This document shows, in pieces, positions 10,605 to 34,623 of a stretch of 38,787 bases of DNA (the first letter of the stretch is position 1; every line of letters begins with the position of its first letter). Location: contig PASN01000002.1 of the NCBI GenBank assembly GCA_002711995.1, forward strand, positions 1 through 38,787, in the 5' to 3' direction. A model generated the notes under the pieces. That model ran no database searches. It was not told the origin of the DNA and saw nothing but the letters and a program-made list of their open reading frames with translations. The position numbers were made by a program, and so were the translations under genes. This DNA comes from Halobacteriovoraceae bacterium (lineage in GTDB: Bacteria > Bdellovibrionota > Bacteriovoracia > Bacteriovoracales > Bacteriovoracaceae).

Positions 10605-13600
10605 ATGATTAGTAGATCTATCTTTATATTCATTACACTGGGACTTCTGGCATCTTGTCTGCCGGAACAAGCTCCTATTAGAAATCTTGATGAAGAGCTC
10701 GCAGGAGCTGTGGATGGATCTATAGATGACTCTCCTGAAGACATCTCAACAGGAATCTCAGAGCAAAACTTTATTCAGCAGGGTGCGACTACGACCTACT
10801 CTACTTTGAATCTTTTTTCAGACTTTCAAGACAGCTTCATTATGCGTGGAGACAATGTGCATAACTACCTTAAGGATCACATTGTTGGCACGAGCAACAG
10901 ACTGTGCATGGCGCTTAATTTTCCACAAGCAAGTGGCACAGGGGCAAAGAAGGTGCTAGTCCTAGCTGCAAGAGTAAGAAACTACTTCAACAACAATTTG
11001 AATGGCAAAGAATACTTTATACAGATGGAGCCATCAAACTCCACCGCCAACATCAATGATTGTTTAAGTGTGAACCTGACAAATACTTTGCAGACAACAT
11101 TTGGAAGCAACTCCTTTGCTTTTAAGATCTCTGACGTTTGCCCTGAGTGCAATACCAATATTGCATCCTCTACCCTTAACTTCTACACCTCTGATGGATC
11201 AGAAGTTTTAGACATAGAAAAAGGAAGTTTCGGCGTGAACCTTATGCCAGAAGTTGGGAGCACTCCACCTTCAGGACTGTCATGCTCCAATGACTCTACT
11301 TGTAAAATTGAAGGCTTTAATTGTTGCATTCAAGGACAATGCGTGAATCACGGAGAAACAAGGCCTAGTGTCGATGTTAATTCTTCAAGCTATCTAAGCG
11401 CGGTTGAGCAGTTGCTGACTCGTCCAGAACTAATAGCAAACTACAGCGGCTTCTTCTATATATGCCCAGAGCTTGTTAGCACACCACCTTCCAACGGCAC
11501 AGGGGATCCAGTTGATCCTGTACAACAGTCTCAGGATTTGTTCACAGAGCTTGATGACTTGTACCACTGTATAAACCCACAAGTGGACGAAATCTCAATT
11601 TGTTCAACTTTTGTGGATATCGACACCAGCAAAATTGGCTCAGGCGGAACCACAATTAGCGCTGGAGCTGATGACATTACATTTAACAGTGTCACTCCAA
11701 CGGTGACCTCTAACAATATTGTGCAAATCGACTACGCCGGTTCCACAATTTACAAGCAGAAGCTTCTGTCTACAGGACAGGAGATTGCTCTGCCTACAGG
11801 CGCCTCTCTGTCGCCTGCAAACGATGATCTATTTAACGCTCAGTCTGCCACAGTGGATATGACGATCCCTAGCGACGCTGTAAACAGCATTTTAAAGATT
11901 GGGTATAAGGTTGATGGCACATGCGAGCGTTTAGGTTCAACCCTCGCTCGTTGTCAGAAACAATATGTTCAAGGACAAAGCAGCTCTCCAGCAAGGTCAA
12001 GCGACCACAATAGCTCCTCTTCAAACTTTAAGATTCCAGCCTACGCCAATCTTAACTACAACGTAATCGTTGAGGTAAATGGAGCTCAGATTCCTCCAGG
12101 AACGGACACTTGGAGCGTTAACACAGCATCATATGAGGTGCAGTTTAATGGCATGAGCATCTATGCCAATCAAAAAGTTGATATCACCTATTTTGTTACT
12201 AACAATGTAGACGCTTTAATGGCCTCAAAAGAGGCCGCTCAAGAACAAGTAAATATGCACTGCAAGTGCGATCCTGAAATTGGATGTAATTTAAAACCAG
12301 TGTATGAAACTCAAAATGATCAAGAAAAACTTGTTGCTTATGAATGTCTATACCCTCAACCCGACACGCCAGAGCCTCCCCTTCAAGCGACTGTATATTT
12401 AAGCTCTAAGACAGTTCCTCACAGATATTATGACGCTTCAGGAGGGCACTATGAAGTCCAGGATATGGGCGATGCCCAAGACCAAGAGGGCAATGAGTTT
12501 AAGTATCATCAGCAAAACACTCTAAAGCCTAACAATCAAGATGGGTATGTGGGCTTTAACGAGATCTATGGATCTTTTAGAAGAGATGAAATAAGCGCCA
12601 TGCCAGCAACTGTTGTGGATATTAAGAAGGGCAAGACTTATGACCTTTTTACAGATTCTGGGATCTTCTCCACTTGTCTAGACTGTGGAAACGACTACTT
12701 CTCAAATCTTCAAAAGCTCTTCCCTGGAAGCTTCCTGCATATGGGCGGTGGTTACCTTCCAGATATGGTGGAATCTAGAACAAAAGAAAATCAAGGTGAG
12801 TTTTCAAGTGTGGATTTAAAGTTTGGCAGAGCATGTTTTGTTCCTGCAACCATGATCCCTTGGACACATAAAACGAATTCGGATGTGACCCAGCAAAGAA
12901 GAGACAGACTTAAAGCTCAACACTTCCTATTTGCCAATGGCTACAACAAAGACTGGTATGGTTTTGACTACGGTTCTCTTATTGGATCTTTTGATGGGGT
13001 TAAGTGGTTCTCAATAGGAAACGAAAGAAGAATCCAGGCAAAATCAAATAAGCTATACCTGGCCATCAACGCTTACTTTGGCGACATGACTATAGACAAC
13101 TCATTTCAGGTGACTATTAATGAGACTTTGAGTGATCTTAACTCTGGCGCATCTGTCGCCCATGACACAGACAGTGATGGAGCTCAATGTCAGAAAGCGC
13201 ACTACTGCTCCACCGACAACGACTGTATGGCACAGCTTGGCTACGAATACGCTTGCGAAAGTGTGTCCGGAATAAGAACCCCATGGCCTATGTTTGACTC
13301 CAATGGAAACGAAATGTCTGGATCAAGTGACCTAAGCCTACTCTCTCTAGTGGGAGGAAGCAACGGCCAGGTGAAAAGATGTGTTTATAGAGGCGCTGGG
13401 GCGGCATGCAACAAACAACTTGCCACTATAACGGACGCCAACAGCTATAATTCAGATGATAGGGCCTCGCTTCACGCATGTTCAAGCAACACTTATTGCG
13501 CTGACTTCTCTGAAGCAAGGTTTAATGATCGAATCTCAAGATACGGCAGAACTCCTGCAACTCAAAACAACTACAGCTTCATTACGGACGTTCTAGGCCT

Positions 13601-15731
13601 AGGAGACACCTTTGGTCTTGGAGCAAGACAGATAGGAAGGCCTTTAAAATTCTATGGCGATTCACTTCCTCCATCTGGAGTAAAGTCTCACTTGGAGTCT
13701 TTAAGAGTGAATGGCCTTTGTGTTCCAGGGAAAGACCCTCAAGGGGCGCAAAATATTGGAGATTTAAATTCAATTTTTGGAACTAGACTTGCTGACAAGG
13801 CGTTGGGCATCGGAAGAACTTATCCAGATGACGTTCTTCAAGACCCTGCCTACTATGCGGCATGTCCAGCGGTCGATAGTGATGGCAACTTTACTCACAC
13901 AGAAAATCTTACTCAGAACTTAAATAGTCATGCGCCTGGCTCCCACGCAGTCAACGCAAGTGCTCAAAACATGTCCACAAACGCTTTAGATGTTCCAAGC
14001 TTTGCTGATCTAGACCTTTTTAATGACAGCTCTGCCACGATGAATAAGCTAGGAGTTCAAAAGGCCGCATGTTTAAGAGCTCCAGGAGCAAGCTGTTTTA
14101 CCGATATGGACTGCTCTCCCAACAAGTTTATAGGACAAAAGGTTCGCTCAATAGCAAGCTTTGGAACAGACCTAAACAAAGCAGAACAAAACTTCTGGAA
14201 AGAGGAGCTTGTGTGCGCAAACTCTCAAGAGAGATACCTAACAGGATCAATATACCCTAATCCAAGCTATGAGCTTTTTGAGCATAAGTGTTGTAGAGAG
14301 CTTGGAAAAGACTTCACCTACTCTTCCCAAAGACATATGGAGAGCGACTTTGAAGTTGTTCAGGGAGACGACCCATCTGGCGCCATTGTCCTTCCAGGGG
14401 TGAATCAGGATATCAACAGTCCACAAAGATATTCAAGAACACACACAGTTTACGACAAGCTAATAAATGAGCGCTCAACTCACGCTCCTCTATACGCTCC
14501 AGGAAAGACAAGAACCAATATCGTAAATTACGACTCTCTTTCGGAGCTTCTTCAATACAATACCCTGCATACGAACAACTCTAGAATGTGTTGTACTGGA
14601 CATTGGGTAAGAAACTTTGCAGGTGGCTCTGAAGACTCAAACGGAGGACACAAGTTCTCAGGAGCCACTCAACAGAACATTCCAAAGGAAACCTTCAAAA
14701 CCTTGGCATGGCTTGGAAATAAAGAGGTTCCAGGCCCTGACAATGATTTTGAAAACTACGACCCAGCATCTTTAAGATTTTTCTGTAATGGGCAAGATTA
14801 CGCAACAAGTGATTGTGAAATTAAACATATTCCTGAGGCAAGCTCAGAGGAAACAAAGTTTCTTGATTGGTTTGGAAAGTTTGAGCTTGTAGGAATTCCA
14901 CAAGTCCTTATTGAAACAAACGATGAAATCTTTAGAGATGTTGCAGATCCAATTACCATTACTCGCGACACTGAAGATTCAAACAACTCAGTGACTGATG
15001 ACAATGGAGAGGTTCTTCACCAACAGTCCCCTATAGCCTCTTTAAAAAGACCTGTGCCCAACACAATCAAAGATGTGTTCTCTGCAGATCCAAAGTACCA
15101 AGGAATCCCAGACGCTCAAGTCAATGGCAAGCAGTACTATTCTGCCGCTAGCTATGACAACCTTGAAGTAGACAGCGGTAAACTCAAGAAAGTCTTCTCT
15201 GAAGACTCTTTCGCATGCTGCATGCCTACAGGTGTGGAAGTTGATGGATCTATGCCAAACAGTCAGTGTTGCACAGGCCAAGTGAATACTGATGATGAGG
15301 GTGTTTCTAGATGTTGCCTTAATGACTTTAGCGATGTGAGTGTTTACACAAATAGATATGTATCAAGCGAAGGAGCCACAATAAATGGAAATCCTATAAG
15401 CGACAATGATATCGACAAGCTTACAGGCTATATAAGAAAAGAAATTGTTCTTGAGATGGCATCAAGCATGTGCTGCTCAGGCAAGGCCGCATACGGCGTT
15501 GCAATCGGAAACTACTACATCCCTATGGATGGTGGTGGCAAGATTGAGGGCGCAAAAACCAGACGCTGGCTATACAAAGAAGATCTAGACAACGCCACAG
15601 GTGTTGGTGGAGCTGCCACGTTCTATGATGCAGGCCTAAAGTGGAACAACCATGTATACTGCATCCCTGCAGATATGGATCCAGGCCAAGGCTCAGGCGA
15701 CGGCGGCGGAAGCGGCACGATTCAAAACTAA
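10605..15731 (+). CDS. Very large Cys-rich lipoprotein of unknown function (1708 aa)
   Basis: I do not recognise a family. A signal peptide ends in the lipobox LLASC (Cys about residue 18), so it should be lipid-anchored in the outer or inner membrane and face the periplasm or the outside. It is rich in cysteines in two styles: C-x(2-4)-D-x-D/S-x-C segments (CSNDSTC, CSTDNDC, CFTDMDC), and at least seven vicinal pairs near residues 240, 1228, 1328, 1537, 1554, 1569 and 1622, three of them as CC[ST]G. These suggest many disulfides or metal contacts. The C-terminus is Gly/Asp/Ser-rich. An AGAGAG site precedes the ATG. The stop overlaps the uppP stop by 4 bases. Other conserved partners are not evident. 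Confidence 0.75.
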   Translation: MISRSIFIFITLGLLASCLPEQAPIRNLDEELAGAVDGSIDDSPEDISTGISEQNFIQQGATTTYSTLNLFSDFQDSFIMRGDNVHNYLKDHIVGTSNRLCMALNFPQASGTGAKKVLVLAARVRNYFNNNLNGKEYFIQMEPSNSTANINDCLSVNLTNTLQTTFGSNSFAFKISDVCPECNTNIASSTLNFYTSDGSEVLDIEKGSFGVNLMPEVGSTPPSGLSCSNDSTCKIEGFNCCIQGQCVNHGETRPSVDVNSSSYLSAVEQLLTRPELIANYSGFFYICPELVSTPPSNGTGDPVDPVQQSQDLFTELDDLYHCINPQVDEISICSTFVDIDTSKIGSGGTTISAGADDITFNSVTPTVTSNNIVQIDYAGSTIYKQKLLSTGQEIALPTGASLSPANDDLFNAQSATVDMTIPSDAVNSILKIGYKVDGTCERLGSTLARCQKQYVQGQSSSPARSSDHNSSSSNFKIPAYANLNYNVIVEVNGAQIPPGTDTWSVNTASYEVQFNGMSIYANQKVDITYFVTNNVDALMASKEAAQEQVNMHCKCDPEIGCNLKPVYETQNDQEKLVAYECLYPQPDTPEPPLQATVYLSSKTVPHRYYDASGGHYEVQDMGDAQDQEGNEFKYHQQNTLKPNNQDGYVGFNEIYGSFRRDEISAMPATVVDIKKGKTYDLFTDSGIFSTCLDCGNDYFSNLQKLFPGSFLHMGGGYLPDMVESRTKENQGEFSSVDLKFGRACFVPATMIPWTHKTNSDVTQQRRDRLKAQHFLFANGYNKDWYGFDYGSLIGSFDGVKWFSIGNERRIQAKSNKLYLAINAYFGDMTIDNSFQVTINETLSDLNSGASVAHDTDSDGAQCQKAHYCSTDNDCMAQLGYEYACESVSGIRTPWPMFDSNGNEMSGSSDLSLLSLVGGSNGQVKRCVYRGAGAACNKQLATITDANSYNSDDRASLHACSSNTYCADFSEARFNDRISRYGRTPATQNNYSFITDVLGLGDTFGLGARQIGRPLKFYGDSLPPSGVKSHLESLRVNGLCVPGKDPQGAQNIGDLNSIFGTRLADKALGIGRTYPDDVLQDPAYYAACPAVDSDGNFTHTENLTQNLNSHAPGSHAVNASAQNMSTNALDVPSFADLDLFNDSSATMNKLGVQKAACLRAPGASCFTDMDCSPNKFIGQKVRSIASFGTDLNKAEQNFWKEELVCANSQERYLTGSIYPNPSYELFEHKCCRELGKDFTYSSQRHMESDFEVVQGDDPSGAIVLPGVNQDINSPQRYSRTHTVYDKLINERSTHAPLYAPGKTRTNIVNYDSLSELLQYNTLHTNNSRMCCTGHWVRNFAGGSEDSNGGHKFSGATQQNIPKETFKTLAWLGNKEVPGPDNDFENYDPASLRFFCNGQDYATSDCEIKHIPEASSEETKFLDWFGKFELVGIPQVLIETNDEIFRDVADPITITRDTEDSNNSVTDDNGEVLHQQSPIASLKRPVPNTIKDVFSADPKYQGIPDAQVNGKQYYSAASYDNLEVDSGKLKKVFSEDSFACCMPTGVEVDGSMPNSQCCTGQVNTDDEGVSRCCLNDFSDVSVYTNRYVSSEGATINGNPISDNDIDKLTGYIRKEIVLEMASSMCCSGKAAYGVAIGNYYIPMDGGGKIEGAKTRRWLYKEDLDNATGVGGAATFYDAGLKWNNHVYCIPADMDPGQGSGDGGGSGTIQN

Positions 15732-16543
15732 ATATTGCCCAGAGACAATATAATCACTCCTAGAATGATTCTATAAATGGTGTAAATTCCCAATCCTACC
15801 TTAGCAAGAAACTTCAAAAAGTAATGGATCGTTAAGATGCCAATGATGAAGCTCACGGTAACACCAATAGCGATATGCCAAACATTAACCATTGCCATGG
15901 CCGACTGCTCGCTGGTAAGGATGTCTTTACCTTTGTAAAGGATACTCGCAAAGATTATTGGAAGTGAAAGTAGAAAAGAAAATCTTGAGGCCTCAAGGCG
16001 TGACAGCCCTGCCACTCTTCCAGCAGTAATAGTTATTCCAGATCGGCTAACCCCAGGAAAGATTGCTAAGGACTGAGACGCTCCAACAAGAAGAGATATC
16101 TTAGATTGAGATGAAGTCTCCATAGAAAGACCTTTTGGTATCTTTCTATCGGCCAAGTACATGAGAATGCCAAAAAAGATCAAATTAAATGCTATGAATA
16201 GAGAGTTTCGGCCATAGTCCAGAGCAAAGTCTTTTATTGCCAAGATAAGAACAACACTAGTAATTGTCGCAATGGTGAAGTTAACAGCAAAAAGCTTATC
16301 CACGCTATAGGGGTCTTTTCTAATAAAATCGCCAAGTCCCTTAAAAAGCCTGATCACATCTCTTTTGAAGTATACAAGAATCGCCAAGGCAGTTCCCAAG
16401 TGCATCATAAGATCAAAGAACACACCTGGGTCCTTAAGCTCGAAAAAGAAAGGAATTAGCGCCAAATGCCCACTTGAGCTAATTGGAAGAAATTCAGTTA
16501 TACCTTGAACAAGGCCGTAAAATAGTGCCCACCACTCTGTCAT
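15728..16543 (-). CDS. uppP: Undecaprenyl-diphosphate phosphatase UppP/BacA
   Basis: An integral membrane enzyme that dephosphorylates undecaprenyl diphosphate to recycle the lipid carrier for peptidoglycan and surface polysaccharides; overexpression gives bacitracin resistance. The 271 aa match the family's usual length and about eight membrane segments. Both signature regions are present: GLVQGITEFLPISSSGH at residues 10-26 (with catalytic Glu17 and His26 by homology) and FPGVSRSGITITAG in the second half, with the conserved Arg. The start codon overlaps the stop of the FHA-RDD gene (TAATG), implying translational coupling. It ends in TAG, showing that TAG is a normal stop in this genome. 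Confidence 0.96.
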   Translation of the reverse strand: MTEWWALFYGLVQGITEFLPISSSGHLALIPFFFELKDPGVFFDLMMHLGTALAILVYFKRDVIRLFKGLGDFIRKDPYSVDKLFAVNFTIATITSVVLILAIKDFALDYGRNSLFIAFNLIFFGILMYLADRKIPKGLSMETSSQSKISLLVGASQSLAIFPGVSRSGITITAGRVAGLSRLEASRFSFLLSLPIIFASILYKGKDILTSEQSAMAMVNVWHIAIGVTVSFIIGILTIHYFLKFLAKVGLGIYTIYRIILGVIILSLGNI

Positions 16544-18849
16544 TATATTACTCCAACGCTGCTGATACCGAAGAAGTCCATATCCTTCTCCTTTAAGGCC
16601 AAAATCAAGTCTGAAAGGTTCTGTGAAAGCTTGTCAGAGATCTTCTCAGGAAGGCCTAAAGACTTTGCATTCTTAGAAAGTAGCTGAAGCACATCGCTTG
16701 CAGACTTTATAACTCTTCTTTGCATCTGATCATCTCCCCTCTCAAAGGCGAGCTTGGACATCTCAAAGTATTGTCCATAAACGGATTGAAAAAGTCCCAA
16801 TACAAGATCACTCTGTTCTTTGAGCTCCTTTGAGGTGAGAAGATCAACAAATGCAAGAAGACGATCTTCGCTCACATCATCAACCTTGCTATTGAAGGCC
16901 ATCAGTTGATAAGTATCCACTCGCTCATTCGATGGATATGAAACTTGATATAGCCTAGTCTTTTTATTGTTAATAGGAAGAAACTTAACTCGTTCCATGC
17001 GACCTTGTTTGTAAGTCGCCACAAGGGCCAAAGAATCACCTACCTGGCCAAAAGATAGCTTATTAGGTTTCTGTCCCAAAAGAGCAATAACTTTATCTTT
17101 AAAGTCTAAATACGAGCCAAGGAAAGGTCCTGACCTTTCAATTGTTGTTATAATTGAATCAACACTCATATCGCCAAGAGAGAAGGCCGTTTCAGTAAGC
17201 CTCTGCAACTCACTTACAATTGTCTCTTGAGGAAAGATTCTAGATTTAAAGTTTTTATTAGTGTTGCTTACATCATTTACCAGTTGTGAGATTGCCGGAT
17301 ACCTTGTAGAGGCCAAAGGATTGGCCATAACAAAATCTTCCAAGAACACACCTAGGTCCAACTCTTTTAAAATTGCAAGCTTTAGCTCCTCACCCTCTTT
17401 GCCAATAAAGCTTAGTGTGGGGTCCAGGGTTAGTCTGCCCTTTCTTCTTGAAAATTTAAAGTTTGGCAAAGCGTAGTCTACTTGATCTGCAGGATAGCTC
17501 ATTTTGAAGAACTTGGAGTTCACTGCCTGGTCGCCTGGAGTGTATGCTGCAAGTTTAACAGTTTTAAGCGTGCTCACTCTCATAGGAGTCGGAGTTTCAA
17601 GACCTCTAAATAGCGGACTCACAAAAAATAAAGTCACCAGAACAGGAGTGAAAACAACTATCGATAAGAGGGATACAAGATTGGATGGTGTCCTAAGTCT
17701 AGTAAAAGAAATGACCTCTTTAAATGACCTTTTAGAGAATAGAGTTGTGAAGTCTAAAATGAAAAACAACGGCAATAGCGCAAACCCTACCACACTTCTT
17801 ACAATTGAAAGAAATCTCTTTGGCAAAAACTCCCCATGCGCCCTAATGCCTGCAAGGGTCTGCCCTAGGGTTTGACCAAAGATAATCGAGCTTATAAATC
17901 TAGAAATCATTACAAGGATTGCAATCTGAAAATAAAAAGAAAAACCTCCGCCAAAGAAAGCTGTTATGGCCTCAGCAATTTGCTGAAGGGCCGGAACGAA
18001 CTCAAAGGCCATTTGAAGCATAGGCACAAATACAAGCTCGTGCAATGGGAGAAGCATTTGAAAAATCGCCCCAGGTAGCCCTTCCACAATGTCATTAAAC
18101 TCAGTAAAGTTTGAAAAGAGATTGTAGATAATTCCCACAATCAAAATATCAAAGCTCATCCCAAATATTCTGATAACCGCATTGGATGAATCAGTTGGTC
18201 TATCTGCAAATGCGGCCACTTCTTTTTTGGGTGCTTCGGTTATGGGAGAGGGTTCTTGATATTCTTGATTCTCTTCTTCCAGGTTGCTAAGGGACTCTTC
18301 AAGGTTTAGTGAGGATGCAGTGGCCTCATCTGGAACAGCTGGGACTTCCTCATCTTCTCCTTGAGGAATTTCAGGAGTAAATTCTTTAGGTGCGGGCTCT
18401 TCAGTCTCACTTTTAAGTGGAGAGGCTTCTTCCTCTTCCTTTATGGCATGATCCTCGACTATACTTGATGCTACTTCCTCTCGTTTGACGACTTTACACT
18501 TAAGTTCACCAAGTCTTATTTTGTCCTTAGGGTCCATGATAATCATTTTCCCAGTCGGTATCTTTTTATTATTTATAAACGTCCCAGTGGAGCCACCATG
18601 ATCTATCACAGAAAGCACCCCCTGGTTCAAAAGAAATGAACAGTGCTTAGGGGCAATGCCCTCATGCTTTATTAAGGCCTCACCCTCCTCAGATCCCACA
18701 GCTAAGGAATTGTCCAACTCAAAAATAGGCTGGCCGGAAGCGTCGGGGAACTCCAAATAAAATTTGGTTACAGACTCTTCACTTTTCAGATCCGGGCTGC
18801 CAACAATGGTAGGCGATTCGTTTTTCCTAAACAAGTCTCTAAGGGCCAT
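16543..18849 (-). CDS. FHA-RDD fusion membrane protein, coupled to uppP
   Basis: A 768-aa protein with three parts. Residues about 30-120 form an FHA phosphothreonine-binding domain with IAPKHCSF and DHGGSTGTFIN (residues 65-92). A long acidic linker (about 125-215) follows, with no predicted fold. Residues about 222-415 form an RDD-type membrane region that keeps the expected R, D and GQTLGQTLAG motifs. The C-terminal 350 residues have no recognised domain and probably lie outside the cytoplasmic membrane. It is the first gene of a two-gene unit with uppP. The fusion suggests that a phosphorylated protein in the cytoplasm is linked to an envelope process, possibly lipid-carrier recycling; that link is inference. 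Confidence 0.8.
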   Translation of the reverse strand: MALRDLFRKNESPTIVGSPDLKSEESVTKFYLEFPDASGQPIFELDNSLAVGSEEGEALIKHEGIAPKHCSFLLNQGVLSVIDHGGSTGTFINNKKIPTGKMIIMDPKDKIRLGELKCKVVKREEVASSIVEDHAIKEEEEASPLKSETEEPAPKEFTPEIPQGEDEEVPAVPDEATASSLNLEESLSNLEEENQEYQEPSPITEAPKKEVAAFADRPTDSSNAVIRIFGMSFDILIVGIIYNLFSNFTEFNDIVEGLPGAIFQMLLPLHELVFVPMLQMAFEFVPALQQIAEAITAFFGGGFSFYFQIAILVMISRFISSIIFGQTLGQTLAGIRAHGEFLPKRFLSIVRSVVGFALLPLFFILDFTTLFSKRSFKEVISFTRLRTPSNLVSLLSIVVFTPVLVTLFFVSPLFRGLETPTPMRVSTLKTVKLAAYTPGDQAVNSKFFKMSYPADQVDYALPNFKFSRRKGRLTLDPTLSFIGKEGEELKLAILKELDLGVFLEDFVMANPLASTRYPAISQLVNDVSNTNKNFKSRIFPQETIVSELQRLTETAFSLGDMSVDSIITTIERSGPFLGSYLDFKDKVIALLGQKPNKLSFGQVGDSLALVATYKQGRMERVKFLPINNKKTRLYQVSYPSNERVDTYQLMAFNSKVDDVSEDRLLAFVDLLTSKELKEQSDLVLGLFQSVYGQYFEMSKLAFERGDDQMQRRVIKSASDVLQLLSKNAKSLGLPEKISDKLSQNLSDLILALKEKDMDFFGISSVGVI

Positions 18850-19048: not shown

Positions 19049-22000
19049 ATGCTGAAACAAAAAACTAGTAGCGCGAAAAAACAAAAATCAATAAGGGTAC
19101 TCCCCCTATTGCTAGCGCTTCAAATGTTTATGCCTACACAGGTAATGGCACAATCTGCTGATGGTAGTAAAGAAGACAACTGGGTTAAAACCGCAGAGTA
19201 TTTAAAAACAGCAAATCAGCTAGGCCAAGAGTTTTTAAAACAGCACCAGGCCATCATGCAACAAAGAAACGCTCAGGCGCAAACCCAAAAGCTTCAACAA
19301 TCAATTGGTATCAATCCAGTGAACCCAGCTCAGCTACCACCTATCCTTGCCCAAAACGGATGTATGGTTCTTGAAGCAAGAACTGACAAGGTAAGCAGTG
19401 GACTAAGCTGTAATGCTCCTTTGGACAATACCCTATTTCAACAAGGTCATTACCACGCACTCTTTAGTGTTGCGGAACAAAACGTGAATACCCTAGAGAA
19501 CTATCTGACACAAGGCCATGAGAGATTTACCACTCAGGGCGTTGGGTGTTACGACAAAGCAAGAAAGCAGCTAGAAGCTCAACTAAAGTCAAGAGAAGTC
19601 CTTCTAGCTCAAATGAAAGAATCCATTGAAAAACGAATAGAAGCATTCAAAAAACTTGCAGAGAAAGACCTGGAAGAAATAAGAAAAGGCGACATTCTCT
19701 TAAATGGAAAAGATGCAAACAGTCTATCAGGCCAAGATAAAGATAAATACTCGAAGGCCCTAGAGGATTATAAGTTTGAAAACCAATTCCAGGATCCTCA
19801 ATGTAAAGCGCTATTTTCAGGCACGGAATACTCCGCTCTTGGACAAAGAGGTGGATTAAAAGGAATTGAGAAAACACTTAGAGCTAACACTGAAGAGATG
19901 GAAGCTGAAAGTTTCTTTAATAAACAAAAACAGCTTGAAGCAGAAATTAGAAAAATAGGAAACGAGGCCTACAGAACCGCTGTTACAAATAAAAGCATCT
20001 CTGTAGCTCCGGACGAGGTTCTTGGTGGAATTAGAACAAGAAACTTTACTTCCTCTTCCAAGGCCTTAACACAATCATTTAGTATTGCGGCAAAGAGAGC
20101 GGAAAAAAGACAAAACGAAATGCAAAGAAAACTTCTTAAAACAGTGGGTAAAGAGCCTGAGCTGGCGTCCATTGCTCAAGCAGTTGAATCAGACTCAGCT
20201 GACGTTGACCAAGCGTTAAGAGACTGGGAAAGAAAAGAAAAAAATTCATGTATGAGCCAGCACCTTAAAAATGAGTTTGGCGGAGTTGATGGTTTTATTG
20301 GAAAACTTGTTGATCCGCAGATCTCTAGACAAGCAAACAGAGAGGCTGACAGCGCATACAAAAACTATGTAAAAAGCATTCTTTCTGACGACAGATTTAC
20401 TGTTGAAGAAAAAATGGAAAAGATAGCTAATGATCAGCAAGCGAGAGGCTCAAGATACACTTTTGTAACGGGTAAATCATTCACAGTAAAAGGAAAGCTT
20501 ATAAGCGCTTCCACAAGACTGAGAGCTTCTGACCTTGTAACCCTGCTTGCAAGAGACTGTGCTGAAGGATTTAAGAGCGACCCAAGAGATGGTGGTTTTT
20601 CCGCGAAAGATAAAGTTAAGGCTCTAAGAAGCTACGCTTCTGGTTACAAGAAGAACAGACAAGAATTCGCTTCTAATTTAAGAAAAGAAATTGTTGAGGG
20701 CGTTCTTAACTGCCCTAGCGACACATCAACAGGCTCAGCTGTTGGAAGCTGTGGCAAAGATGCCACCAATGTAAACAGTCCAGGTTTTTGTGTTAGAACA
20801 GCTAATACATGTGCTTCAAGCGCTTTGGCCTGTACAGAAAAGGCCCAAAGAGTTGTTGAGAAGACCAGAAAACAACAAAAGACAATTGCTCAAAGATACA
20901 AGAAGAACATGGATAAGCTAAAGTCCGACCTGATTGCCGAATTTGAAATGGTAAGCAAAAACCTTGAGCAAAGTGCCAGAACAATTGATGGCCTTTACCA
21001 AATGGGCACTCAGTATGAAAAAGAAAACAGGGCCAATCCAAGTTTGACTCTTAATTTTACAGACACAGAGCTTCTTCAAGGAGTTGACCCTTCCCTAGTT
21101 GTGGAAGATCCGGATAAATACAAAGAAAAAGTATTTGCCAACATCAGCGCAGTTGAAAAACAAATAAAGAAGCATAGACAAGATGTTGTTAAAGCATATG
21201 ACACAGAGATAGCGAAATACACAAAGAACTACGGAGCTCAAAAAAACGAATGGGCACAAGTAGTATCTCAATGTAACTCTGCGATTAACAGTCACTATGC
21301 AGCGATGGAAGCGGCACAGAAGGCTGCTCAAGAAAAAGCAATGGCTGCAAACAAGAAGGCCCAAGAAGATGCGAAAAAGGCAAATGAAAAAATAGCTGAA
21401 GCATGTAACAAATACTCGACTTTCAAAGTAAACCCATGTCCAGGTTCAAGCTCTGGAGCATTTGGTGAACTTGCTGATGACATAGCGAGTATTGCAGCCT
21501 CCTCTGCGGATGTTCAAGCTGCACAAGATATCAGGTCAATTGTCGCCTCATGCGACGCCTTTGCGAATGAGTCTGGCGCCAATATTTTTCACCAGACTAG
21601 CACTGACAATAAAAATGCAATGGATCTCGGAGATTTCTGTGAAAAGGTCGGAACTAACAAGGAAATTGTCAAAATCGCTTGTGAAGATTACAAAGAGGCA
21701 CGCCAAGATAGGAATTTAGCAGGTAAAAACATTTGCGATGAAGATGAGCACCTCCCTACGGGCTACGATAAAATGGCAGAGAAACACATCTTTTGTAAAT
21801 GGGAAGGCGATGATTACTATAAGAAAAAGATTCAATATGAAAGTTGCGAAGACTGGAAATCTGACGCAGTCGAAGTTACCGCCCTGGACGAAATAAAAAA
21901 CGAAACGATACGAGAAGACATCCTTCATGCATCAGGCTGTTCAAAGAAAGGTTCAGGCAAAGATAGCCTTGAGCAATATGAAGCAGCTGAAAAGAAACTT

Positions 22001-22177
22001 CTTGGCTACTTAGCTCAATACCAACAACACAAGCTAAAAGATCAAGTTGGCCAAATAGAAGTGGCAGCTTGCGAAGCCGGAGTGGATTCTGATCCAAGCA
22101 TGCCGGATATGAATACGCCTGCAGCAGGACAAAATGGAATGATGGGTGTTATGGGCTCAGGAGTATATGGTTTTTAA
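19049..22177 (+). CDS. Exported coiled-coil protein of unknown function (1042 aa)
   Basis: I do not recognise a family. A signal peptide covers about residues 1-35 (basic start, LLLALQMFMPTQVMAQS, probable cut after A-Q or M-A). The mature part is highly charged and rich in Gln, Lys, Glu and Ala, with long coiled-coil-like stretches near 170-240, 280-380, 600-660 and 700-790 (AQKAAQEKAMAANKKAQEDA). Cysteines recur between helical parts, especially after residue 790. The C-terminus is a Gly/Met tail ending in GVYGF. It has a GAGGA ribosome-binding site and heads a run with the protease lipoprotein, 19 bases downstream. A structural or scaffold role in the periplasm or outside is a guess. Confidence 0.78.
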   Translation: MLKQKTSSAKKQKSIRVLPLLLALQMFMPTQVMAQSADGSKEDNWVKTAEYLKTANQLGQEFLKQHQAIMQQRNAQAQTQKLQQSIGINPVNPAQLPPILAQNGCMVLEARTDKVSSGLSCNAPLDNTLFQQGHYHALFSVAEQNVNTLENYLTQGHERFTTQGVGCYDKARKQLEAQLKSREVLLAQMKESIEKRIEAFKKLAEKDLEEIRKGDILLNGKDANSLSGQDKDKYSKALEDYKFENQFQDPQCKALFSGTEYSALGQRGGLKGIEKTLRANTEEMEAESFFNKQKQLEAEIRKIGNEAYRTAVTNKSISVAPDEVLGGIRTRNFTSSSKALTQSFSIAAKRAEKRQNEMQRKLLKTVGKEPELASIAQAVESDSADVDQALRDWERKEKNSCMSQHLKNEFGGVDGFIGKLVDPQISRQANREADSAYKNYVKSILSDDRFTVEEKMEKIANDQQARGSRYTFVTGKSFTVKGKLISASTRLRASDLVTLLARDCAEGFKSDPRDGGFSAKDKVKALRSYASGYKKNRQEFASNLRKEIVEGVLNCPSDTSTGSAVGSCGKDATNVNSPGFCVRTANTCASSALACTEKAQRVVEKTRKQQKTIAQRYKKNMDKLKSDLIAEFEMVSKNLEQSARTIDGLYQMGTQYEKENRANPSLTLNFTDTELLQGVDPSLVVEDPDKYKEKVFANISAVEKQIKKHRQDVVKAYDTEIAKYTKNYGAQKNEWAQVVSQCNSAINSHYAAMEAAQKAAQEKAMAANKKAQEDAKKANEKIAEACNKYSTFKVNPCPGSSSGAFGELADDIASIAASSADVQAAQDIRSIVASCDAFANESGANIFHQTSTDNKNAMDLGDFCEKVGTNKEIVKIACEDYKEARQDRNLAGKNICDEDEHLPTGYDKMAEKHIFCKWEGDDYYKKKIQYESCEDWKSDAVEVTALDEIKNETIREDILHASGCSKKGSGKDSLEQYEAAEKKLLGYLAQYQQHKLKDQVGQIEVAACEAGVDSDPSMPDMNTPAAGQNGMMGVMGSGVYGF

Positions 22178-22196: not shown

Positions 22197-24857
22197 ATGA
22201 GAATGTTCTACGGAGGGGCCTTCAAATTCACCAAAGCAACAGTACTTGCAGTAATATTAGCAAGCACTACCCTTTTGACTTCATGCCAAGAGGCCCTTCA
22301 AGCTCCAAGCAGCAATGCAAGAAAAGATGCTATTTCTGGTGATTTCTATTACACTGGCAATGGCCTAATTTACGAAAACAACCCTATCATTGCCTCAGGA
22401 AACTATAATCTTGCAAGGCCATCTATGGGTGATTACGTTACAGCCAAGCATGTAACAGATGAGCCATCCCTTGAAACAAAGTGTTCTTACAACTCATCAG
22501 AAACCAGTGATGAATGTTTTAAAGTCTTAAACGACACTTCCACAACAAGTGTGCTTCAAGCAAACAATGGCGGATGGGACTATGGAGTTGGAACAGATGA
22601 GTTCTACCAAATAAACACCTTCTATCACGTTAATAAACTACTTAAAAGATTTTATGAGGCCTTGGAAAGTGGAAACAGCAATATTCACTTTTCTGGCAGC
22701 AATCTGGTTCCACCATCCTCCAAGTATGGGATAGAGAACACACTCTCCTTCTGGCTTGCGAAAGGACTTAGAGATCCAAATGATTTTAACAATATTCTAG
22801 GTGTTGAGAACTCAACCTTAAAAGTATATTCAAAATGTTACTTAGATCCTTTTAATGCATTCTATTCACCATCAGAAAATAAGGTATGCCTTGGATGGAA
22901 CGATAACAGCAGTTTCTTATATGCAGCTCAGGATCCTTCAGTAATTTATCACGAGATGGGCCATGTACTGGTGAAAGTGATGATGAACCAAAGAAATATC
23001 TCCTACAACATGCCAAGCTATCATGTGACTCCTTTTCAGTCAGACTTGGGATCTTTGTTTTACGACGAGGCCGGAGCAATAAATGAAGGTCTTTCAGACT
23101 GGTTTAGCTATTTCATTACAGGAAGAACTCACTTTGGAGAATGGGCACTCTGCAGGTTCTTTGACGCCTCAAGGGCATTAACTGAGGATGACCCAATTCA
23201 CAATGGTATGGTATCCAAGGCCTCAGGAGAAAGACTCTCCTACCCTGAGTATTTATACTATGATCCAAACAATCCAGATTCTAAAAGTGAAGATGTTCAC
23301 TACGCAGGTCAGATAGTCTCTCACTACTTAACGAGCCTTACCGAAGAGCTTAAGTCCACATGTTCAGCCTCTCACACAGATGCCGGCAATATGGTCTTAG
23401 GAGTGGTGAATGAAACACTCGCTGAGCTTGGAGACATGACAGGTAAAGGCAGTGATGTATTTGATGAGTTCATTAGAGGGAATGATGTAAATTTTGGTGC
23501 GTTTTTCACGAATCTAAATAATCAGCAGTCGTACCTATGGGGACATCAGGTAAATCCACCAAACTTTAGAAAGTTCTTTCAAACTTTGGCAAAAAACATC
23601 ACTTATCACATTACAAATAAAAGCTGCATTCAGTTCACTAAAGACAAGTCTGAAACCCTGCTCGACGAGTATGGACTACTTCTATTTAAAACCTATGGGG
23701 AAAATAAAAAGGGTGTGAAACTTACAGACTTGGGTGGCGGCGTAATTCAAAAGGCGGACACAACTTATCAAGACGCATTCAATGACTTCTTTACAAACTG
23801 TTCAAACACTACTTTCATCTACCCAATTGACAACTATTGTCCTCTTGGAACAAACACAACCGTAAATGAGAGCAATAGAAGAAACTCTGTATTAATCGCC
23901 AAGGAGTTCTTGGAATACCCTGAAGACAGAGATGGAGTGTCGCCAGCGTACATCGTTGATGAAAGATCCAGTATAGAACAACTTCTTGCAAATCTTCTGT
24001 ATGAGGGAAAACCTGTACAAACATCAGAAGGGAGCGCTGGAGTTGAGTACAACAATAACAATATTAAAATTAGCCCAGGTGAGATCGTAGGAATTAACCT
24101 GAACCTATTTAATAACTCAAACTCCACAATGGGCGGAGTGCACATCCTTGCAAATGACTGGGACCACATGAGAATGGATGACCTATCCTCAACCTATGTA
24201 AACAGAGTGGAAAATAGAAATGCTGCCAAAGACATAGCAAATTGGAGTCCATGTCAAATAGATGGATGGCCAAGCGTTGATGAGGGTGGCATCCCAAGCG
24301 ATGGACAGTCTCCTGGAAACTGTGACTATATCACTCGAGATAACTTTGTCATTGAGCTAGATGGCACCAACAATCAAAAATACGCTCAGGATGCTTCACA
24401 ACCTGTATGTCTGGTTCAGCACAGTTCTGAGAATGAAACTCAATGGGTATCGCAAGACTTTCACAGAAGAAGTGAGCTTGGACTGGAAGCATCTCAATGC
24501 TTGAATCCTCCAGGTTACTCTGGTGATGACTTCAATCCAAATGAATGTTTAGTAAGGTTTTTACCTGGAGCTGACCAAGCTGTTCTAGGAAAGATAAATC
24601 CACAAAAGTCGTGGGCACAAACTCTAACGGACAATTCGGAAACTGGACTTACTATTCAGCAAAACGCAGTAACTCTTCTTGAGGTGAACAAAAGAATTAG
24701 GCCAGGAACGACTTTTAACTGTCGACTAAGAGCTAGGTTCTCAAACTGTTCAGATTGCTTCGAAGACCCTGACACAGGTGAAGAGTATGCAGACTATGAA
24801 ATGGTGGGAGAAAGGCCATTCAAAGTTATTAACTTTAAATTTACAGTGGTGGATTAA
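22197..24857 (+). CDS. Lipoprotein with gluzincin zinc-metalloprotease signature (886 aa)
   Basis: A lipid-anchored exported protein: the signal peptide ends in the lipobox LLTSC (about residue 30). The catalytic motif HEMGH is at residues 252-256, and AINEGLSDWF places the likely third zinc ligand at Glu297, as in the gluzincin (M4/M36-like) clan. The preceding segment FYQINTFYHVNKLLKRF resembles the region before the active site in fungalysin-type proteases. The spacing between HEXXH and Glu (41 residues) is long, so substrate class is uncertain. The last 300 residues are probably accessory beta-rich domains with several Cys. AGAGG precedes the start; the stop overlaps the next start (TAATG). 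Confidence 0.82.
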   Translation: MRMFYGGAFKFTKATVLAVILASTTLLTSCQEALQAPSSNARKDAISGDFYYTGNGLIYENNPIIASGNYNLARPSMGDYVTAKHVTDEPSLETKCSYNSSETSDECFKVLNDTSTTSVLQANNGGWDYGVGTDEFYQINTFYHVNKLLKRFYEALESGNSNIHFSGSNLVPPSSKYGIENTLSFWLAKGLRDPNDFNNILGVENSTLKVYSKCYLDPFNAFYSPSENKVCLGWNDNSSFLYAAQDPSVIYHEMGHVLVKVMMNQRNISYNMPSYHVTPFQSDLGSLFYDEAGAINEGLSDWFSYFITGRTHFGEWALCRFFDASRALTEDDPIHNGMVSKASGERLSYPEYLYYDPNNPDSKSEDVHYAGQIVSHYLTSLTEELKSTCSASHTDAGNMVLGVVNETLAELGDMTGKGSDVFDEFIRGNDVNFGAFFTNLNNQQSYLWGHQVNPPNFRKFFQTLAKNITYHITNKSCIQFTKDKSETLLDEYGLLLFKTYGENKKGVKLTDLGGGVIQKADTTYQDAFNDFFTNCSNTTFIYPIDNYCPLGTNTTVNESNRRNSVLIAKEFLEYPEDRDGVSPAYIVDERSSIEQLLANLLYEGKPVQTSEGSAGVEYNNNNIKISPGEIVGINLNLFNNSNSTMGGVHILANDWDHMRMDDLSSTYVNRVENRNAAKDIANWSPCQIDGWPSVDEGGIPSDGQSPGNCDYITRDNFVIELDGTNNQKYAQDASQPVCLVQHSSENETQWVSQDFHRRSELGLEASQCLNPPGYSGDDFNPNECLVRFLPGADQAVLGKINPQKSWAQTLTDNSETGLTIQQNAVTLLEVNKRIRPGTTFNCRLRARFSNCSDCFEDPDTGEEYADYEMVGERPFKVINFKFTVVD

Positions 24858-25360
24858 TGAAGAGAAAGCACTACATTGCCTTAGGAATTGTGGCAGTAAC
24901 TGGAATTGTGGTTGGCTGGAAGCTTCTCTCAACCAAAGACACGAGAAGTTTTGTCTACACTCCCACTCCCTTCAAAGAGGAAAAGGTCTCTGAACAATCA
25001 GTTGTATCAAAAGAGACAATCAAAACTGAAGAGAAGGCTCCCGCAAGAAACGTGGCAAGCATTCCGGCACCTAAAAAACAAAAATGGCGCAAAGGCCTGG
25101 ACGCAAACTTAAAAAAGCATTTAAGCGCGATTGGAGCGAAGGCCTCCGTAAAAAAACTTGGAAGAAGAACACTGCCCTCAGGTTCTAAACATAAAGAGGT
25201 TCTTCACGTTTTAGTGTCAATAGACGCAGGAAAAGGAAACATTTCAAGCTATGAAGCGTACGTGAATCCCGAAAGCGGAAGTATTCTGAAAACTTGGAAT
25301 CAGACCAGGTTTGAAAATAAAAAACCAATGAAGCTAAGTCTAAAGCCTTTTAGGCCTTAG
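24857..25360 (+). CDS. Membrane-anchored PepSY/FTP-like protein, possible trans-propeptide of the upstream protease
   Basis: A 167-aa protein with one N-terminal membrane segment (about residues 5-24, IALGIVAVTGIVVG), a Lys/Glu-rich linker to about residue 75, and a compact C-terminal domain (80-165). Its end, SSYEAYVNPESGSILKTWNQT, follows the pattern of PepSY/FTP propeptide domains of thermolysin- and fungalysin-like proteases (Y-x-V-[YF]-V-[DN]-x-x-[TS]-G-x-[IVL]). It is coupled to the protease gene by TAATG. I infer an inhibitor or folding chaperone supplied in trans. The similarity is by eye only. It ends in TAG and overlaps metG tail-to-tail by 11 bases. Confidence 0.65.
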   Translation: MKRKHYIALGIVAVTGIVVGWKLLSTKDTRSFVYTPTPFKEEKVSEQSVVSKETIKTEEKAPARNVASIPAPKKQKWRKGLDANLKKHLSAIGAKASVKKLGRRTLPSGSKHKEVLHVLVSIDAGKGNISSYEAYVNPESGSILKTWNQTRFENKKPMKLSLKPFRP

Positions 25361-32684: not shown

Positions 32685-33161
32685 CTATTCGATCTCACAA
32701 AGTTCAACTCCGCCTTGAACTTGGGCGCCCTCGGCGAAATGAATTTTCTTAACGACACCATCTTGCTGGGCCTTGATAGTGTGCTCCATCTTCATTGCCT
32801 CAAGAACAAGTATTGCTTCCCCTGCCTCAACAGCGTCTCCCTCATTCTTTAAAACTTTGAAAATTTTCCCAGGCATTGGGCTTTGTAAACTTCCGGCACC
32901 ACCCAAAGAGCCGGTCGCCTTCTGTGCCTTTTCAATGAATTTAACCTCATCCTCTAATTCCTCAACAAACACCTGTTTAGTTTCAGCTGAAGGAATGTAA
33001 GAGCTTGAGAAAGAGTATTTCTTACCTTTAAAAAACAAGCTTTCCTGGTCCCTTTTAAAGCTGTATCTTTTGCCATTGAACATGAATTCAATTGCATTGT
33101 TGTCACTTGATAAAATATCAACAACAACCTCTTCTTTGCCTAATAATAACTTCTTTTTCAT
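32685..33161 (-). CDS. Separate biotin-carrier subunit of methylcrotonyl-CoA carboxylase
   Basis: A 158-aa protein with a C-terminal biotinyl domain: the motif EAMKMEH places the biotin on Lys124, and SPMPGKIFKV and GDAVEAGEAILVLEAMK are typical. The N-terminal 80 residues are beta-rich and resemble the small linker (BT-type) domain that joins carboxylase and carrier in larger enzymes. In most methylcrotonyl-CoA carboxylases the carrier is fused to the biotin carboxylase; here it is its own gene, with the carboxylase stop overlapping its start (TAATG). The overlap argues for a natural split with coupled translation rather than a lesion. It ends in TAG. Confidence 0.9.
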   Translation of the reverse strand: MKKKLLLGKEEVVVDILSSDNNAIEFMFNGKRYSFKRDQESLFFKGKKYSFSSSYIPSAETKQVFVEELEDEVKFIEKAQKATGSLGGAGSLQSPMPGKIFKVLKNEGDAVEAGEAILVLEAMKMEHTIKAQQDGVVKKIHFAEGAQVQGGVELCEIE

Positions 33162-34623
33162 TAAACGTTCCTAAAGTTAGAAATTCCAGTCCAAGCCCCA
33201 TTGTACTCTGGCAGCTCTCCTACCAAAGCCGCAGCTATAAGCATCGCCTTTTCATCATCACTCTTTTCAACTTTACCTAAGTCGTTTTCATAATCTTTTA
33301 TGAAGTGAGTGTGAATATCCCCCTCTTTAAACTTTGGATGCTTCAAAATTCTTCTTAGGTAGTCCCTGTTTGTTTTAACACCACTAAAAGTATAGCTATT
33401 TAAGGCCCTAATTGCTTTGTCTATAGCTTCATCTCTAGTGCTTGCATGAACTATAAGTTTAGCGAGCATGGGATCATACTTAATGGAGACATAGTTACCA
33501 CTTTCAAAGCCGCTATCTAAGCGAGCGTCTTCCTCTGCGTGCTCGCCAACACGAGACACTTTGCCAATACTTGGCAGGAAGTCATTATCTGGGTCTTCAG
33601 CATAGATTCTCATCTCTATCGAGTAACCACTTTGGGTAATATCCGATTGAGAAAATGGGAAGGCCTCGCCTTGTGCGGCCTTTATTTGAAGTTCGACCAA
33701 GTCAAAACCTGTGACCATTTCAGTCACTGGGTGCTCCACTTGAAGGCGGGTGTTCATCTCAAGAAAGTAAAAGGAGTTGTCTGGAGAAAGAATAAACTCA
33801 ATAGTTCCCGCTCCAAGGTAGTTAATTCCTTTAGCAATGCTGACGGCACTTGAGCACATCTTTTCTCTAAGCTTTTCATCCAAAGCAACAGATGGCGTTT
33901 CTTCTATCACTTTTTGATATCTTCTCTGGATTGAACACTCTCTTTCAAAGAAGTGAAAGTGATTGCCCTGTCCATCACTCACTAACTGCACCTCTATATG
34001 GCGTGGATTAACGATATATTTCTCAAGAAGAACCTTATCATTTCCAAATGCGTTTTTAGCCTCTCTCTTAGCTCCCTCTAGGGCGGCCACGAATTCACCT
34101 TCGCTTTCAACAATTCTCATACCTTTACCACCACCACCGGCAGTCGCTTTTATAAGAACTGGAAAGCCTATTTTTTTGCTTCCTCGAATAAGAAGTCAGA
34201 GTCTTGGTTCTCACCATGGTAACCGGGAACGAGAGGAACACCAATTTCTTCCATTTTCACTTTGGAAGTTTTCTTGTCACCCATAAGCTCCATGGCCTGA
34301 GGTGCAGGACCTATGAAAATGATTCCAGCATCAGTAACTTTATTACAGAACTCTGAGTTTTCAGAAAGAAAGCCATATCCGGGGTGAATCGCATCGGCGC
34401 CACACTCTTTGGCGATTGAGATGATCTTATCTTGGTTTAAGTAAGTCTGTGCCAAACTACCCATTCCCAGATAAAAGCTTTCATCAGATGCCTTGGTATG
34501 TGGCAGGTCTTTATCGGTTTCTGAGTAAATACTGGCACTTTTAATTCCTAGTTTCTTACAAGTATTTGCTACTCTTATTGAAATTTCACCTCTGTTGGCG
34601 ATCAATATTTTATTTATTTTCAT
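33161..34623 (-). pseudogene. mccA: Biotin carboxylase subunit of methylcrotonyl-CoA carboxylase, frame broken by one base at an A7 run
   Basis: Biotin carboxylase (ATP-grasp) carboxylates the carrier biotin in leucine breakdown. The first 151 codons (ANRGEISIRVANTCKKLGI, HPGYGFLSEN) stop at TAG just after an A7 run at 34171-34177. Shifted by one base, the frame continues IGFPVLIKATAGGGGKGMRIV, the expected ATP-binding loop, then QRRYQK, FLEMNTRLQVEHPVTE and EMRIYAEDP to the stop. The joined product is about 487 aa, full length. Either half alone lacks an intact ATP site, so without slippage no enzyme forms. The start lies 14 bases inside liuC. The choice between decay, -1 frameshifting and a homopolymer error cannot be made from sequence alone. 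Confidence 0.88.
34171..34177 (-). other. A7 slippery site at the mccA frame break
   Basis: Read on the minus strand: GC-A-AAA-AAA-TAG. The seven As fit the X-XXY-YYZ form of a -1 slip, and a -1 slip here restores the mccA frame exactly (AAA AAA ATA GGC). The zero-frame stop follows at once, and a GAGGA tract lies only 3 bases upstream. No strong downstream structure is obvious. Confidence 0.6.

Follow-up and report, generated by a model that had tools for sequence, protein, structure and literature searches.

A probable split zymogen in Bacteriovoracia: a zinc lipoprotease without a propeptide encoded beside a membrane-anchored, propeptide-like partner

Introduction

Zymogens of the M4 family (thermolysin, vibriolysin MCP-02 and LasB) and the M36 family (fungalysin) are normally made as one chain, in which an N-terminal propeptide of roughly 200 residues is cut off and degraded. 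M4 propeptides serve both as a folding aid and as an inhibitor (PMC6490944, PMC4282423). A PepSY protein can also act on a separately encoded enzyme, as in YpeB/SleB, where SleB is a spore-cortex lytic enzyme and not an M4/M36 protease (PMC4282423). In protealysin/emfourin and RhpP/RhpC, the gene of an M4-type protease is followed by a small gene whose product inhibits the protease, and RhpC has been described as mimicking prepropeptides functionally (PMC6490944, PMC9505478). Of the latter pair, RhpP lacks a Sec signal and RhpC resides in the cytoplasm. The lipase LipA and its partner Lif/LipH are encoded in one operon, the partner consisting of a membrane helix, an unstructured linker and a periplasmic client-binding domain (PMC13381987). 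The chaperone domain of Lif is helical and unrelated to PepSY. The metalloprotease CpaA of Acinetobacter is a type II secretion substrate rather than a lipoprotein. CpaA has a dedicated membrane-associated chaperone, CpaB (PMC4713064), which has been cited as one of only two known classes of steric foldase (PMC13381987); no homology link of CpaB to PepSY was found or claimed.

The locus described here lies in a 38,787-nucleotide stretch of DNA from a Halobacteriovoraceae bacterium, which is referred to as the window. With the M4 and M36 enzymes it shares the catalytic fold (Z 20-23), the HExxH...E site and the family of the propeptide domains, the last being clearest in related partners from other families of the phylum. 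It differs in that the protease is a lipoprotein and the propeptide-like protein is separate, membrane-anchored and encoded downstream; the protease gene comes first, opposite to the order of the domains in ordinary zymogens. The partner has the layout of Lif/LipH with a protease in place of a lipase as its neighbour, and it appears to belong to another family than the partners of protealysin and RhpP. Neither a published description of such a split zymogen nor an experiment on either protein was found in the literature searched, which was mostly outside subscription papers.

Results

Two coupled genes. The pair consists of two open reading frames.

22197..24857, + strand: M4/M36-type zinc-protease lipoprotein of 886 aa without a propeptide (from the sequence and a model of its relative L067, fold Z 20-23 versus M4/M36 enzymes)
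24855..24859, + strand: TAATG stop/start overlap coupling the two genes
24857..25360, + strand: partner, a separate membrane-anchored propeptide-like protein of 167 aa

An earlier note on this DNA had described an HEMGH...NEGLSD lipoprotein coupled by TAATG to a membrane-anchored second protein. Both descriptions held, the first protein having a lipobox-like LLTSC followed by Q, HEMGH at residues 252 to 256 and NEGLSD at residues 296 to 301, and the second starting inside the stop codon of the first. Among 107 pairs, the spacing of the genes was −1 in 28 and between −8 and +10 in 82%. The gene upstream of the protease (19049-22177) encodes an exported 1042-aa protein and, together with 10605-18849, forms a syntenic region; the order large lipoprotein, UppP, FHA/RDD protein, 1042-aa protein, protease and partner recurs in many genomes of the class. 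A biotin-carboxylase-like protein is divided between two open reading frames, 34168-34623 and 33161-34120, on the − strand (within 33161-34623), which may reflect a frameshift, an error of assembly or a genuine split.

The protease. The following features were assigned to the first protein.

22197..22286, + strand: lipoprotein signal peptide with the lipobox Cys30 (LLTSC) at its end
22359..23687, + strand: catalytic domain, approximate limits transferred from residues 25-446 after the lipid Cys of the L067 model
22950..22964, + strand: HEMGH zinc-binding/catalytic motif, residues 252-256
23082..23099, + strand: NEGLSD, with the third zinc ligand E297
23298..23300, + strand: H368 (EDVHYAG), His in 32/34 aligned proteases
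23724..24854, + strand: Cys-rich C-terminal beta domain, approximate limits from conservation (Ig-like matches with Z of about 6 only)

The protein showed the HExxH motif and third-ligand Glu that characterise clan MA: H252, E253 and H256 were identical in 33/33 sequences, and E297, G298 and D301 in 34/34. Judged by eye, H368 is likely to be the equivalent of thermolysin H231. A lipobox-like pattern was detected by regular expression in 29/34 protease rows; the other five comprised L049 and L060, whose N-terminus was outside the stretch read, and three non-standard forms. The 886-aa protein itself fell below the Pfam cut-offs (Peptidase_M4_C, 16 bits versus 24.4; Peptidase_M4, 15 versus 22.4), while Peptidase_M4_C was matched by 19/36 of its relatives. 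Single-sequence searches of the PDB with the protease and with the partner gave nothing useful. The model of the relative L067 exhibited a thermolysin/fungalysin fold, matching 4k90 with a Z of 23.4 and thermolysins with a Z of 20 to 22. Nearly all of the matching M4/M36 structures aligned to this model from residue 22 to 27 after the lipid Cys, indicating that there is no space for a propeptide in cis; by this start of the catalytic fold, no FTP/PepSY propeptide was found within the protease chain. Short open reading frames (about 170 to 226 aa) whose match to the protease profile is confined to its C-terminal domain were observed in L128 (3363-4022), G150:C54 and G082:C9.

The partner. The second protein is predicted to consist of an anchor, a linker and a small domain.

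24866..24940, + strand: N-terminal membrane anchor helix, residues 4-28 (AF2 helix 4-28)
25046..25060, + strand: RNVAS, a copy of the recurrent linker motif R-x-(P/V/I)-A-S
25082..25306, + strand: PepSY-like domain of one helix and four strands (AF2 pLDDT 90-97 in most of the domain)
25259..25288, + strand: YVNPESGSIL, the counterpart of the PepSY end motif VDAxTGkIL by sequence/profile comparison

A hydrophobic N-terminal stretch was present in 88/112 partners and an AxA-like cleavage pattern in 7, and the anchor helix would be of the uncleaved type. The strict linker motif occurred in 48/112 partners compared with 0.3 in shuffled sequences, the sequences being related and so not independent; the motif might mark a site of contact or of cleavage.

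The earlier note had suggested a PepSY/FTP-like domain at the C-terminal end, of which the PepSY-like part stood and the FTP part was not detected. PepSY (PF03413) was the best Pfam match of the 167-aa protein, but at 14.3 bits against a cut-off of 24 (E = 0.051), and was matched by 4/33 orthologues (best E, 0.0032). Alignment of the class partners with 23 PepSY domains from the phylum by hhalign gave a probability of 76 to 77%, with only the C-terminal half of PepSY covered; among the controls, shuffled columns reached at most 1.8%, the reversed set 0.5% and one block of the protease alignment 8.7%. FTP (PF07504) was not matched by the 167-aa protein at an E of up to 1. It was also absent from the families listed for the 33 class partners (25 of 40 families). 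Emfourin was likewise absent from the families listed for the partner and, within 25 of 40 families, for its relatives. A Foldseek search of the PDB with the partner alone found nothing below an E of 0.001, and its top 50 matches included no propeptide chain; a VIA-align comparison of the model found only weak common folds of the cystatin/NTF2-like type (best Z, 6.3). Stretches of MotB in the PDB that were matched by the class-partner profile were judged to be chance matches arising from the anchor and linker.

Linkage across the class. Among the first relatives fetched, the partner was directly downstream of the protease in 33/36 loci, often at −1. The class set consisted of 129 genomes of Bacteriovoracia, all of one family, of which 118 had protease matches and 117 had partner matches. 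A partner lay downstream on the same strand for 112/121 protease matches, indicating that the coupling of the genes is not due to chance. Joint presence of the two genes gave a Fisher p of 5e-8, a descriptive value only as phylogeny is ignored. Neither gene was found in eight genomes, including all four of genus g32. Nine proteases were without a downstream partner (G030, G070, G074, G010, G016:C84, G100, G079, G128 and G140); those of G070, G074, G010, G016:C84 and G100 begin no more than 5 bases from the end of a contig. In G030 the partner was kept, unlinked from the protease, on another contig (L123, 4797-5504), and this position may reflect a local rearrangement. Its neighbours there begin like genes for HMG-CoA lyase and biotin carboxylase, and in the window this cluster is located about 6 kb downstream. 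The G001 assembly (82% complete, 5% contamination) contained two protease-partner pairs, L045 and L060, and contamination is possible because the partner in L060 closely resembles that of G090.

Paralogues of the partner, with a membrane helix and a PepSY-like domain, were observed in L113, L118, L120, L121 and L126. They adjoin exported proteins that carry RicinB or C-type lectin domains and lack HExxH; hence, the PepSY-like domain is not specific to the protease, and this type of domain is probably also used for other purposes. A 647- to 667-aa open reading frame with a partner-profile match (G077 and G079) was considered as a fused zymogen and rejected, as no HExxH was found.

Related pairs in other families of the phylum. 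A search of the phylum with the protease profile detected matches to the M4 core in 22 genomes outside the class. Twelve of these and G053 were read, giving 13 lipoproteases, and the pair was present in six other families. The HExxH was too near the N-terminus for a cis propeptide in all 13, and a lipobox was detected by regular expression in 12, the remaining one (L241) having a plausible SSAC. Directly downstream of each of the 13 was a protein of 233 to 297 aa with an N-terminal hydrophobic segment. FTP was matched by 10/13 of these partners at an E of up to 0.5 (best E, 6.5e-5, with L233 over the cut-off) and Pfam PepSY by 2/13. The top three PDB matches of their profile were the thermolysin precursor 5a3y (7.7e-9), the vibriolysin propeptide 3nqy_A (3.2e-6) and the fungalysin propeptide 4k90_B (1.1e-4). 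Peptidase_M36 was matched by 8/9 split proteases scanned, five at or over the cut-off. A single-chain enzyme with FTP and PepSY also occurs in the class (L246), without such a neighbour.

The earlier note had proposed looking for the same gene pair in other genomes, and it was found with 112/121 matches within the class and 13/13 outside it. Its central proposal, a propeptide supplied by a separate membrane-anchored protein, gained support from the linkage across the class and, decisively, from the match of the partners outside the class to M4/M36 prodomains. By sequence, partners in the other families carry FTP and PepSY, and those in Bacteriovoracia appear reduced to PepSY. The direct link between the two partner profiles was weak (hhalign probability, 24%), and it is from the same position and topology that the 167-aa protein would be a reduced form of the longer partners.

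Modelling of the pair. An AF2 model of the L067 pair, fused by reading through the TAG stop, had a pLDDT of 89.8 and a pTM of 0.81, which are overall scores and not a reading of the interface. Foldseek matched this model to the vibriolysin propeptide chains 3nqz_A (E = 0.77) and 3nqy_A (E = 1.6), which is suggestive and not significant.

Discussion

These results indicate that the two genes probably encode a split zymogen, comprising a lipoprotease without a propeptide and a separate propeptide counterpart that would be held in the inner membrane and fold or restrain the protease. As a split variant of the M4/M36 zymogens the pair is well supported; folding help, inhibition, activation by separation and the inner-membrane site of the partner are what we infer, with function taken by analogy from the known M4/M36 propeptides. 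The M4/M36-type zinc lipoprotease would be exported without any propeptide, while an N-terminal helix would hold the partner in the inner membrane and place its PepSY-like domain in the periplasm. The tethered domain could then bind the protease on its exit from Sec and either aid its folding or prevent its activity close to the inner membrane; on moving to the outer membrane or surface, the lipidated enzyme would be freed in active form. There would be no covalent propeptide to cut in this scheme.

The partner could instead be a dedicated inhibitor or immunity-type protein, with a role like that of emfourin, which shields the periplasm of the producer and has no part in folding. The two-gene layout resembles protealysin/emfourin and RhpP/RhpC, whose downstream genes encode inhibitors of the protease (PMC9505478, PMC6490944), and proteins with the PepSY/BLIP fold have been proposed to inhibit either in cis or in trans (PMC2954215). 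An inhibitor-only role and a split zymogen are not separable from sequence data, but the partners outside the class are homologous to M4/M36 propeptides, which both fold and inhibit, and emfourin was absent from the listed families (25 of 40); we regard this reading as unlikely. The Bacteriovoracia partner might also be no longer a propeptide but a general membrane-anchored PepSY adaptor which, like YpeB, tethers or stabilises exported proteins. While the undetectable FTP, the sub-threshold PepSY score and the paralogues beside lectin-domain proteins would fit such an adaptor, the tight linkage of partner and protease and the joint lack of both across the whole class, and a position and topology the same as those of the FTP- and PepSY-containing partners, make it more doubtful still. 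That the protease and an unrelated small membrane protein are chance neighbours in a conserved operon is highly improbable: the other genes of the locus are also syntenic and the single-sequence PepSY match is weak, but the pair recurs in six other families with partners recognisable as propeptides, the partner was kept when unlinked in G030, and the retrieval of M4/M36 prodomains from the PDB by the profile of partners outside the class already disfavours this explanation.

For a split zymogen, prediction and gene position give the layout of a membrane-anchored foldase of the Lif/CpaB kind, with an N-terminal membrane helix, a linker, a periplasmic domain and a gene beside that of the client. 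A more tentative proposal is that these partners might form a third class of membrane-anchored steric foldase, derived from the M4/M36 propeptide, which would fold and block each lipoprotease molecule in turn; activation would follow from the physical parting of enzyme and tethered propeptide between the inner and the outer membrane rather than from cleavage.

If true, a phylum-wide two-gene form with an inner-membrane propeptide would mean that folding and inhibition are provided by a reusable, spatially fixed partner, and the separate propeptide gene suggests a novel means by which a dangerous enzyme is folded and held in check. The natural separation of propeptide and enzyme would also allow the contributions of FTP and PepSY to be tested, because the partners of the other families carry both and those of Bacteriovoracia only PepSY. 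Some members of the class prey on bacteria, and a restrained protease of the envelope could, hypothetically, bear on the attack of prey.
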